Below, piece after piece: positions 45,096 through 48,246 of a stretch of 48,246 nt of DNA. Source of the DNA: an uncultured Oscillospiraceae bacterium. Its GTDB lineage: Bacteria > Bacillota > Clostridia > Oscillospirales > Oscillospiraceae. Below the pieces are notes generated by a model that was not told the DNA's origin, did no database searches, and worked only from the letters and a program-made list of their open reading frames with translations. The translations under genes and the position numbers were made by a program. The stretch's first letter is position 1. Each line of letters begins with the position of its first letter. The stretch covers positions 1 through 48,246 of the forward strand of contig CATLFX010000016.1 in NCBI GenBank assembly GCA_949935795.1, read 5' to 3'.

Positions 45096-45929
45096 ATGAA
45101 GCAACACAAAAAGGGGCTGGCGGTCTGTCTGGCGGCCGCGGTCCTGCTGCTCATCGCCGCGCTGATGGCCGGGTCCCCCGGGCCGTCGGAGAGCGTGCAG
45201 GAGGCCATGCGGGACGCGGTGCTCCACGGCACGGGGCAGATCAGCCTGTTCGGCCTGATGACGGTGAACCCGGGGATGATCTCCGCCCTGCTGGTGACGG
45301 CGTTTCTGCTGCTGTGTGCCGCGCTGATCCGGGTTTTCGCCATCCCCCGGTTCCAATACCAGCCCGGAAAGCTCCAGTTGGTGCTGGAGGAGCTGGTGGG
45401 CCTGTTCGACGGCATGGCCAAGGGCAACAGCCCCCACCGAAACCGCTTTCTCGGGGCCTACCTCTTCGCCGCCGGGTCCTACATCTTTGTGGGCACCCTG
45501 TCTGAGCTGCTGGGCCTCCAGGCCGTGACCATCCACGGCCACCCCATCACCCTGCCCGCCCCGCTGTCCGACGTGAACGCCGCCATCGCTATGGGCACGC
45601 TGTCCTATCTGGTGATCCTGTCCGGCGGCGTGGCCTCCAACGGCCTGGGCGGCGTAGGCAAAACCCTCAAGGAGTTCTCCCTGCCCATATCCATGAGCTT
45701 CCGTCTGTTCGGCGCCCTGCTCAGCGGGCTGCTGGTGACGGAGCTGGTGTATTACTACGTGGCGCTGAGCTTTGTCCTCCCCGTGGTGGTGGGGGTGCTG
45801 TTCACCCTGCTCCATGCCCTGATCCAGACCTACGTGCTCACCATGCTCACCGCGCTGTACTACGGTGAGGTGTCCGAGCCTTCCCCCAAGAAGGAGAAAA
45901 AGAAAAAACTCCAGGCGAAGAATGCCTGA
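45096..45929 (+). CDS. atpB: ATP synthase F0 subunit a
   Basis: This 277-residue polytopic protein carries the essential arginine of subunit a in SMSFRLFGALLSG, on the helix facing the c-ring, and ALIQTYVLTMLTALYYGE in the last helix. It forms the two half channels for the coupling ion. The family sequence after the arginine is usually RLFGN; here it is RLFGA. The C-terminus is lysine-rich. ATG 45096 lies 9 nt after AAGGA; another ATG at 45088 is out of frame. The gene order is a, c, b, then alpha, with no separate delta gene. Confidence 0.93.
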   Translation: MKQHKKGLAVCLAAAVLLLIAALMAGSPGPSESVQEAMRDAVLHGTGQISLFGLMTVNPGMISALLVTAFLLLCAALIRVFAIPRFQYQPGKLQLVLEELVGLFDGMAKGNSPHRNRFLGAYLFAAGSYIFVGTLSELLGLQAVTIHGHPITLPAPLSDVNAAIAMGTLSYLVILSGGVASNGLGGVGKTLKEFSLPISMSFRLFGALLSGLLVTELVYYYVALSFVLPVVVGVLFTLLHALIQTYVLTMLTALYYGEVSEPSPKKEKKKKLQAKNA

Positions 45930-45962: not shown

Positions 45963-46325
45963 ATGAATAAGCTGCTGAAAAAGATGTTTGTCCTTGCCGG
46001 GGTGTTTATGCTGGTTCTGTCCCTGGCCGCCCCCGCCTTTGCCGCCGACGCCCCCAGCCAGGGCGAGCCCGCCGCCCAGACCGAGACCAGCGAGGGCTCC
46101 ACCATCGGCCTGAAGGCCATTGCCGCGGGCATCGCCGTGGGCATCGCCGCCGCCGGCGGCGCGGTGGGCATGGGCCTGGCCACCGCCAAGTCCACCGAGA
46201 GCCTGGCCCGCCAGCCCGAGGCGGAGGGAAAGATCCGCACCACCCTGATGCTGGGCCTGGTGTTCATTGAGACGGCCATCATCTACGCCCTGCTGGTGGT
46301 CATCCTCATCATCTTTGTGCTGTAA
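45963..46325 (+). CDS. atpE: ATP synthase F0 subunit c with N-terminal signal sequence
   Basis: This 120-residue protein is longer than the usual c subunit of 75-90 residues. The first 27 residues form a signal-peptide-like segment ending AFA, followed by about 20 polar residues. The two-helix hairpin then starts near residue 48. The polar loop is ARQPEA. The ion-binding carboxylate is E103 in VFIETAIIYALL, with T104 and Y108 as in sodium-binding c subunits. However, the residue aligned with the sodium-ligand glutamine of Ilyobacter is M70. Ion specificity is therefore uncertain. GGAGG precedes the ATG. Confidence 0.92.
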   Translation: MNKLLKKMFVLAGVFMLVLSLAAPAFAADAPSQGEPAAQTETSEGSTIGLKAIAAGIAVGIAAAGGAVGMGLATAKSTESLARQPEAEGKIRTTLMLGLVFIETAIIYALLVVILIIFVL

Positions 46326-46343: not shown

Positions 46344-46835
46344 ATGCCTCTGAATATCAATTTGCAGCAGATTCTGCTGCATTGGATGAACCTGGCCATC
46401 CTGACGGGAGGGCTCTATTTCCTCCTGTACAAGCCGGTGAAGGACTTTATGGACAAACGGACCGCCCACTACCAGGAGCTGGAGGAGCAGGCGGCGGACA
46501 AGCTGGCCCAGGCGGAGCTGCTGGAGTCCCAGGCCAAGGCCAAGCTGGAGGCGGCGGACGACGAGATCCACGACGAGCGGATGCGGGCCCAGCAGGCCGC
46601 CTCCGACGCCGCCCAGGAGCAGCTGGCCCAGGCCGAGGAGCAGGCCCGCCGGATCATCGCCAAGGCCCAGGCCGAGGCGGAGCAGTCCAAGGAGCGGGCC
46701 CTGCGGGAGTCCCAGCGGGAGATGCGGGACCTGGCCGCCAAGGCGGCGAAAAAGCTGGCCGCCAAGCCCGGCGCCGATTTCTTCGACCAGTTCCTGGACC
46801 TGACGGAGGGAGGCAAGCCCCATGAGGGACGCTAG
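46344..46835 (+). CDS. atpF: ATP synthase F0 subunit b
   Basis: This 163-residue protein has one N-terminal membrane helix ([24 protein letters not shown]). A long alanine/glutamate/lysine-rich coiled coil follows (about residues 40-140), with [22 protein letters not shown] typical of b. It forms the peripheral stalk. The length is normal for a single b subunit, and no delta domain is attached to it, in contrast to the b-delta fusion of mycobacteria. Its stop overlaps the start of the next gene by 14 nt. Confidence 0.93.
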
Positions 46836-48246
46836 AAGCCGCCTCACCGCCCAGCTGCGCAGCGCCGACCAGCCCACCGAGGCCCAGCTGGCCCGCTTCG
46901 GCGAATTTCTCTCCCGCACCTACAAGCGGAAGGTCCCCCTCCACTGGGAGTTTGACGAGACCCTTCAGGATGGCTTCCGCCTCCAGGTGGGGTCCGACGT
47001 GTACGACTGGACCCTGGACGGCCGGGTGCGGCAGTTCCAGGACTACCTGCGCCAGCTGGAGCCGGGGGAGAACGACATCGTCCCCCTCATCCGCCAGGCG
47101 GTGGAGCACTGGGAGCCCTCCCCCGCCCCGGAGGAGATGGGCGAGGTGCTGTCCGTGGACAGCGATATCGCCACGGTCAGCGGCCTGGCCCACGCCCAGT
47201 ACGGCGAGATTCTGGTGTTTGAGAGCGGGGTCAAGGGCATGGTCCAGGACCTGCGCCCCGAGGGGCTGAGCTGCATCCTCTTCGGCGACGGCGAGGAGAT
47301 CCGGGCGGGCAGCATGGTCCGCCGCACCCTGAAAACCGCCGGCATGCCGGTGGGAGAGGGCTATCTGGGCCGGGTGGTGGACGCCCTGGGCATTCCCGTG
47401 GACGGCAAAGGGGCCATCGAGCCGGAGGGCTACCGCCCCATGGAGACCCCCGCCCCCGGCATTCTGGACCGCCAGCCGGTGAACACCCCCATGGAGACGG
47501 GCCTGCTGGCCATCGACTCCATGTTCCCCATCGGCCGGGGCCAGCGGGAGCTCATCATCGGCGACCGCCAGACCGGCAAGACCGCCATCGCCCTGGACAC
47601 CATCCTGAACCAGAAGGGCAAGGACGTGGTGTGCATCTACGTGGCCATCGGCCAGAAGACCAGCTCGGTGGCCCAGCTGGCGGAAAATCTCGCCCGCCGG
47701 GGGGCCATGGAGTACACCACCATCGTCACCGCCCCCGCCGGAGCCTCCGCCGCTTTGCAGTACATCGCCCCCTACGCCGGGTGCGCCCTGGCCGAGCACT
47801 TCATGTACCAGGGGGACGACGTGCTCATCGTGTACGACGACCTGTCCAAGCACGCCATCGCCTACCGGGCCCTGTCCCTGCTGCTGGAGCGCTCCCCCGG
47901 CCGGGAGGCCTTCCCCGGCGACGTGTTCTACCTCCACTCCCGGCTGCTGGAGCGGTCCGCCCACCTCAGCGACGAGCTGGGGGGCGGCAGCATGACCGCC
48001 CTGCCCATCGTGGAGACCCAGGCGGGGGACGTGTCCGCTTATATCCCGACAAATATCATCTCCATCACCGACGGCCAGATCTTTTTGGAGAGCGACCTGT
48101 TCTTCTCCGGCCAGCGGCCCGCCGTCAACGTGGGCCTGTCCGTGTCCCGTGTGGGCGGCGACGCCCAGACCAAGGCCAAAAAGGCCGCCGCCGGGGCCAT
48201 CCGGCTGGAGCTGGCCCAGTACCGGGAGATGGAGGTGGTCACCCAG
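46822..48246 (+). CDS. atpA: ATP synthase F1 alpha subunit with fused delta (OSCP) C-terminal domain; cut by the window end
   Basis: The frame is open from ATG 46822 to the last base (475 residues). Residues about 1-75 ([20 protein letters not shown], then [21 protein letters not shown]) match the C-terminal domain of delta/OSCP, which in E. coli reads around [20 protein letters not shown] and GDMVIDGSVRGRLERL. The alpha subunit then begins with [12 protein letters not shown] and [26 protein letters not shown]. Walker A is GDRQTGKT (about residues 247-254). [42 protein letters not shown] and the [16 protein letters not shown] end of the core are all present. The delta N-terminal helical bundle is missing. 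GGAGGG precedes the ATG, and the gene overlaps atpF by 14 nt. Confidence 0.9.

Follow-up and report, generated by a model that had tools for sequence, protein, structure and literature searches.

A delta C-terminal domain fused to the alpha subunit of a gut bacterial ATP synthase, and what it may mean for the number of peripheral stalks

In ordinary F-type ATP synthases a single delta subunit sits atop F1, its N-terminal domain plugging the threefold axis and its C-terminal domain holding the b dimer, and in the usual picture there is one peripheral stalk and one a subunit, with the ion-to-ATP ratio set by the c ring alone. The locus described here lies at the end of a contig from an uncultured Oscillospiraceae bacterium (assembly GCA_949935795.1, contig CATLFX010000016.1; the window is the whole analysed stretch of 48,246 nucleotides) and joins the C-terminal domain of delta to the N-terminus of alpha. 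It raises the question of whether such an alpha subunit brings its own stalk socket, and what this would mean for the number of stalks on one enzyme.

The genes concerned all lie on the forward strand. Subunit a is encoded by atpB (45096..45929, 277 aa), assigned from NCBIfam F0F1 subunit A models, each scoring below its own cut-off (62.7 bits at best), and from PDB subunit a matches; subunit c by atpE (45963..46325, 120 aa; Pfam ATP-synt_C over residues 53-116); and subunit b by atpF (46344..46835, 163 aa; Pfam ATP-synt_B, 60.7 bits), the C-terminal stretch of which is conserved across 81 b sequences. A Shine-Dalgarno-like GGAGGGAGG (46805..46813), read from the sequence, stands 8 nt 5' of the ATG of the fused frame, which remains open through to the contig end (46822..>48246; 475 aa present). 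As atpF is a separate gene with its own stop codon and overlaps the start of the fused frame by 14 nt, there is no room for a separate delta gene; the original prediction of a single frame directly after atpF, with no delta between b and alpha, is thereby borne out.

Within this frame, residues 1-76 (46822..47049) form a delta/OSCP C-terminal domain, identified by PF00213 and by its predicted fold. The Pfam match covers residues 2-75 (profile positions 97-171 of 172) at 35.7 bits, significant against a cut-off of 22.3, and reaches only the C-terminal half of the profile; the N-terminal domain of delta is missing and no complete delta/OSCP is present. A short linker of about seven residues (77-83; 47050..47070), delimited by the gap between the OSCP and alpha matches and by alignment A1, leads into the alpha N-terminal helix region (residues 84-97; 47071..47112; helix modelled at 86-96 with low confidence), which is retained given so short a linker. 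The F-type alpha model TIGR00962 matches from residue 84 at 616.7 bits (cut-off 484.45) despite the contig end, which interrupts alpha (47071..48246). A delta C-terminal domain in the first 75 residues or so, an unbroken continuation into alpha, and the coordinates and break point had all been predicted correctly.

The alpha subunit resumes on contig C6, which begins with a 155-nt overlap (98.7% identity) with the end of the window and carries the alpha tail, gamma, beta and epsilon according to local profiles, with beta also recognized by NCBIfam. These local profiles were built from the study loci, partly from fused members, and Pfam serves as the independent check. Subunits a, c and b (in the window) and gamma, beta and epsilon (on C6) are all present, and a relative (L004) has the uninterrupted operon a-c-b-[deltaCTD-alpha]-gamma-beta-epsilon.

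The window's subunit c (45963-46325) bears an N-terminal extension of about 50 residues that resembles a signal peptide on direct reading of the translation. A simple ad hoc pattern, applied to frames taken from the preceding stop, with lengths as upper bounds and some genomes shown twice, found a signal-like N-terminal part on c in 87 of 111 CTD-alpha loci and in the single double-CTD locus, and in none of 13 full delta-alpha, 32 canonical or 14 b-CTD-alpha rows.

AlphaFold models were obtained for N-terminal parts, namely window residues 1-116 and the N-half of one b-deltaCTD-alpha relative. The former (24 sequences) has a mean pLDDT of 65, with block means of 71-85 over residues 11-70 and lower values elsewhere, and presents the order strand-helix-strand-strand-strand-helix; Foldseek returned 21 matches to it at E <= 0.001, all of them ATP synthase entries and delta/OSCP or b-delta by chain name. 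Additionally, all 24 hand-chosen diverse fused domains in alignment A1 match Pfam OSCP at E <= 0.01, and invariant columns run through the domain across these 24 sequences.

An assembly or sequencing artefact joining two genes deserves attention where the genome is 69.7% complete in 70 contigs and the window ends within the gene concerned. No frameshift was seen in the window, and the junction is open in one frame in 80/80 independent related loci (the best 80 of 584, enriched for the fusion because the query was the fused protein including the fused domain; two of them, L051 and L059, share an assembly prefix), which shows that it is not a read error. Among these best 80 of 584, the frame from the first start codon measures 573-642 aa in 78, the other two (L039, L049) having a shortened alpha end, and fused loci occur in the isolates Flintibacter muris DSM 110149, Faecalibacterium gallinarum JCM 17207 and Acutalibacter sp. 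1XD8-33. One further locus, L183, has its two parts in separate reading frames, while the nearly identical L126 shows the fusion. The survey of relatives proposed with the original prediction thus recovered the same fusion in all 80 loci, and a frameshift, which could have overturned it, did not appear. With purifying selection added, the probability of an artefact becomes negligible: the delta CTD-alpha fusion is genuine.

The selection estimates come from 14 hand-chosen pairs, in which dN/dS is 0.05-0.42 for the fused domain (13 pairs; undefined in one), 0.02-0.22 for the alpha body (all 14) and 0.04-1.0 for the less constrained stretch of linker and alpha helix. Judged from these ratios, the fused domain is under purifying selection. 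Its values do exceed those of the alpha body in 13/13 pairs where they are defined, as would suit a functionless, decaying remnant, but they lie well below 1 in the same 13 pairs, and together with the invariant columns across the 24 sequences and the conserved end of b, the putative partner, they make decay very improbable. This end of b is close to invariant: of 81 b sequences, 100% keep F150 and 99% keep L151 (numbered as in the window's b; 156 and 157 in the alignment). In E. coli the C-terminal part of b binds delta (PMC6131620, in the part available), and the fused domain probably binds b likewise.

Equally important is whether another delta or alpha is encoded elsewhere. In the window's own genome (69.7% complete) no further OSCP match exceeds the cut-off. 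Two matches stay below it, at G000:C18:29025-29279 and C1:76388-76576 (14 bits); the first was rejected as a hidden delta, being FliH adjoining FliI (FliH models fit best, under their own cut-offs), and FliH we take to be a distant relative of delta. ATPase matches on contig C30 (L137) were rejected as a second F-type alpha, as they represent A, B and D (by NCBIfam) of a V/A-type ATPase that this genome also encodes. Among 18 fusion genomes drawn from the best 80 of 584 loci, a full delta was not found in 15, and the same 15, that of the cultured Flintibacter muris DSM 110149 among them, encode exactly one alpha above the TIGR00962 cut-off; the remaining three (L064, Faecalibacterium gallinarum; L054; L079) have a second, canonical alpha and a delta elsewhere in the genome. 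The check for a separate atpH or second atpA thus came out in favour of the original prediction, in the window's own genome as far as it is assembled and in 15/18 fusion genomes, and for the 15 genomes lacking a second F-type alpha its corollary follows: barring processing, each F1 contains three fused domains. Two genomes of the window genome's genus (G011 and G155; loci L130 and L131) encode delta as a full-length protein of its own, together with a canonical alpha that belongs to a different branch, a pattern that may reflect exchange of whole operons within the genus.

Processing, by an internal start or proteolysis, would release a free C-terminal domain and an ordinary alpha, and the resulting enzyme would be near normal except for the missing delta N-terminal domain. 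An in-frame ATG, GTG or TTG occurs in the junction in 78 of the 80 loci (best 80 of 584), preceded in 43 of the 80 by a Shine-Dalgarno-like stretch in at least one case; the window has an ATG at residue 106 straight after GGAGGAG and a GTG at 109, and stand-alone CTD genes of 73-74 aa exist in four relatives. An ATG with a Shine-Dalgarno-like stretch, however, is found in only 4 of these 80 loci, start codons coincide at any one position in 45 of them at most, and no conserved internal start was seen in the junction across the set, while a protein initiated at residue 106 or 109 would lack the alpha N-terminal helix. Altogether, we consider processing improbable.

The arrangement has a direct engineered counterpart, and 9jc1_I, a chain of that engineered delta-alpha fusion, is the PDB sequence closest to the window's fused region. 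According to the available text of Ueno et al. (2025; PMC12229609), the restriction to a single stalk is argued to come from the delta N-terminal domain, which occupies the threefold axis; in the Bacillus PS3 enzyme this domain was deleted and the C-terminal domain fused to alpha (PDB 9JC1), which yielded as many as three stalks together with three a subunits, SDS-PAGE giving a mean of about two. By cryo-EM, 15% of particles had no stalk, 51% one, 26% two and 8% three, the H+/ATP ratio was 5.8 against 3.0, and the equilibrium pmf was about half that of the wild type, which the engineered enzyme does not equal in proton pumping (PMC12229609). The Discussion of the same paper notes that Acidaminococcus fermentans naturally has delta fused to alpha with the delta N-terminal domain absent, and points to two similar UniProt entries (G4Q3K6, A0A1I2C5T3). 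The kind is therefore already known, through a paragraph and a supplementary figure of that paper, and the impression given by the original prediction that the fusion is undescribed does not hold. By that description the window's protein resembles the A. fermentans fusion, with delta and alpha joined and the delta N-terminal domain missing, and the window is a further case of this kind (PMC12229609). It shares with the 9JC1 construct the order of delta C-terminal domain, short linker and alpha N-terminus, as well as the lack of a delta N-terminal domain and of any other delta or alpha; the construct, however, is man-made with a demonstrated multi-stalk state, whereas the window's fusion is natural and known from genes, with a linker about three residues shorter in the alignment.

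Other departures from the standard stator are more distant. The mycobacterial b-delta protein likewise joins a delta domain to a neighbouring stator subunit (PMC5709465), and b-delta chains are among the Foldseek matches, but there delta sits on the b chain with alpha separate, whereas in the window the C-terminal domain alone sits on alpha and b is a separate protein without a delta domain. Niu et al. (2017; PMC5709465) describe a Clostridia unit without delta (eps-beta-gamma-alpha-b-c-a) and also a delta/b fusion, and no deltaCTD-alpha fusion was seen in the accessible part of their survey. N-ATPases have no delta subunit, and their longer b resembles the A-type E subunit (PMC5706428, available text). 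Over positions 180-242 of 246, the N-ATPase b model TIGR03321 gives a weak match to the window's domain (E 0.047), yet the delta-like end would there lie on b rather than on alpha, and the window's b has no OSCP match; the N-ATPase alpha model TIGR03324 gives 530.6 against a cut-off of 750.5 on an alpha interrupted by the contig end. In the V/A-ATPase E subunit and in FliH, a stalk helix ends in a delta-CTD-like domain, but these are separate proteins, whereas the window's domain is covalently part of alpha. Finally, among PDB entries of Chloroflexus aurantiacus (9ITJ and related), 18 contain a total of 72 b chains and 6 a total of 12 delta chains, hence four b and two delta per entry, chain counts that suggest a natural two-stalk F-type enzyme; delta is there a separate 157-aa chain, in contrast to the window, and its last 70 residues match.

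The spread of the fusion was gauged from open-frame length as a proxy, with rows counted by eye. Of 148 genomes in the window's order, 88 encode an F-type alpha above cut-off, and in 29 of these 88 an alpha frame reaches at least 575 aa, the truncated one of the window's own genome excluded; 14 of the 29 frames were fetched and read, and 3 of the 29 genomes also list an alpha of canonical length. By row count, 51 of 200 genomes of the family carry an uninterrupted fused frame, the truncated own one included. For the phylum, at least 12 rows besides the window's own show an uninterrupted frame of at least 575 aa among the matches listed for 398 genomes, three of them (G016, G426, G652) in the window's order or class; a 13th (G499) has a stop within the matched stretch, yet reads as a single frame in L189. 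A phylum census of alpha (170 of 199 genomes with alpha) was left out of these counts. Extended alpha frames are accordingly common in this order, and the counts suggest that they are much rarer outside it. Acidaminococcus fermentans presumably belongs to another group of Bacillota than the window's clade.

The relatives display a whole series of arrangements: a separate full delta; a complete delta-alpha fusion (670-706 aa, e.g. L101-L106; 12 rows from 11 distinct genomes); the CTD-alpha form of the window; a double CTD before alpha (L115); stand-alone CTD genes of 73-74 aa (L108-L111); b-CTD (L116); and b-CTD-alpha (14 loci). Several of these loci are unusual in themselves. The tandem pair of delta C-terminal domains ahead of alpha in L115 (4023-6068) makes a protein of 681 aa; in L116 (385-2715, minus strand), gamma and beta share a single open frame of 776 aa adjoining the b-deltaCTD fusion; L107 (3899-4684, minus strand; 261 aa frame) has a delta with a second C-terminal domain appended; and L185 (3342-5861) encodes a b of 244 aa that weakly matches the delta CTD, then a deltaCTD-alpha of 583 aa, and has another b upstream.

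In an IQ-TREE phylogeny of 58 alphas rooted on 8 canonical ones, the complete delta-alpha fusions fall at the base of the window's clade (44 rows, support 99/92), from which it follows that in this clade the fusion preceded one or more losses of the N-terminal domain. The AU test ruled against a common origin for the full set of fusions (p 4e-7; 39 fusion rows vs 28), so the fusion arose at least twice; a shared origin of a second CTD-alpha clade (L166-L174) and the b-CTD-alpha clade was not rejected (p 0.26). The groups compared in the AU tests were named after an earlier tree had been seen, and the trees were thinned, one to 114 of 184 classified alpha rows (47 of 116 CTD-alpha rows, with duplicates and most of the 80 loci dropped) and the others to 58 and 67 rows. 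In the open-licence PMC literature searched, neither this scale nor the order of events nor the repeated origin was found.

The most elaborate form is the b-deltaCTD-alpha triple fusion, present in 14 loci (L113, L114, L119, L121, L122, L123, L125, L127, L180, L184, L192, L193, L194, L195) as a frame of 737-815 aa. At E <= 0.01, OSCP matches all 14 and ATP-synt_B 13 of the 14, with 20.7 bits in L184 against the Pfam cut-off of 28, and every N-terminal part contains a stretch like a membrane helix (best 19-residue hydropathy 1.96-2.66). A separate b lies upstream in 13 of the 14, L119 being the exception, and that of L184, L113 and L127 lacks the conserved C-terminal end. The model of one N-half (14 sequences, pLDDT 79) comprises a 132-residue helix, further helices, the delta domain and the alpha N-terminus; in the PDB it is most similar to chains of the engineered 9JC1 construct (E about 1e-5), and matches to V-ATPase chains are weak (ranks 25 and 26, E about 0.007). 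As predicted from sequence and model, the alpha of these relatives is a membrane-anchored protein. The form was not found in the open-licence PMC literature searched.

How would an enzyme with the window's alpha be put together? In E. coli the stalk touches all three alphas asymmetrically, so that delta is held in a single orientation (PMC5214741), and in Acetobacterium woodii delta binds only the completed alpha3-beta3 hexamer (PMC8904574), both according to the portions of these sources available; in contrast to the latter, the fused domain would be present from the start of assembly. Each alpha would bring its own stalk socket in the form of the b-binding domain fused to it, and with the axis plug gone this amounts to three equal b2 sockets per F1. 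Two or more b2 stalks may then attach to the same enzyme, each accompanied by an a subunit of its own, and extra stalks would raise the number of ions moved per ATP, allowing ATP to be made at a low ion gradient or more ions to be pumped per ATP. The reading we favour, with a probability of roughly 0.6, is an alpha with its own stalk socket, in an enzyme that can most likely bind more than one b2-a unit at once. Extra stalks in the living cell, and a raised ion-to-ATP ratio, would follow by analogy with the engineered enzyme, and a shortage of a or b could hold the natural enzyme to a single stalk.

A single-stalk enzyme with a tethered socket is the main competing interpretation: one b2-a unit would be bound at a time, two domains would remain idle, and the fusion would strengthen the stator joint and replace the delta N-terminal domain. 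Most engineered particles show one stalk (51%) or none (15%) by cryo-EM, and complete delta-alpha fusions, with room for only one N-terminal domain on the axis, survive in 11 distinct genomes; their persistence means that fusion alone is no proof of extra stalks and that fusion without them seems workable. Furthermore, the alpha N-terminal helix is still fairly conserved in the window's clade, where the ratio of helix to barrel identity is 0.69, compared with 0.67 in complete fused delta, 0.74 in the unfused-CTD clade and 0.84 in canonical enzymes, and is far more relaxed in the second CTD-alpha clade (0.30) and the b-CTD-alpha clade (0.22). The proposal that the helix relaxed as the N-terminal domain was lost therefore holds in the last two clades and fails in the window's and the unfused-CTD clade; with a helix no more relaxed than in relatives keeping that domain, something may still bind the helix or the top of F1. 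Against one stalk, the engineered enzyme averaged about two by gel stoichiometry and pmf, the very domain held to limit stalks to one was lost after fusion in the window's clade, and such an arrangement is hard to achieve in the 14 relatives whose alpha bears a membrane-anchored b. On this evidence, one stalk at a time is possible, though rather unlikely.

Returning to the multi-stalk reading, its broadest version, to which we give somewhat less than even odds, holds that these are natural three-socket enzymes with two or three b2 stalks, as many a subunits and a multiplied number of ions per ATP; that this architecture has two or more origins in Bacillota, and was reached in the window's clade by way of a full fusion that subsequently lost the axis plug; and that it reaches its extreme in b-deltaCTD-alpha, where three covalent b/b' stalks would resemble the three E-G stalks of V-ATPases.

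Engineering broke the one-stalk rule with this same fusion, and natural cases were predicted from three sequences (PMC12229609, in the text available). The fusion now seems common in one order of gut bacteria, including relatives of Faecalibacterium, with intermediates as well as more extreme forms. Nature may thus already make multi-stalk ATP synthases, and cultured species that carry the fusion allow a direct answer.
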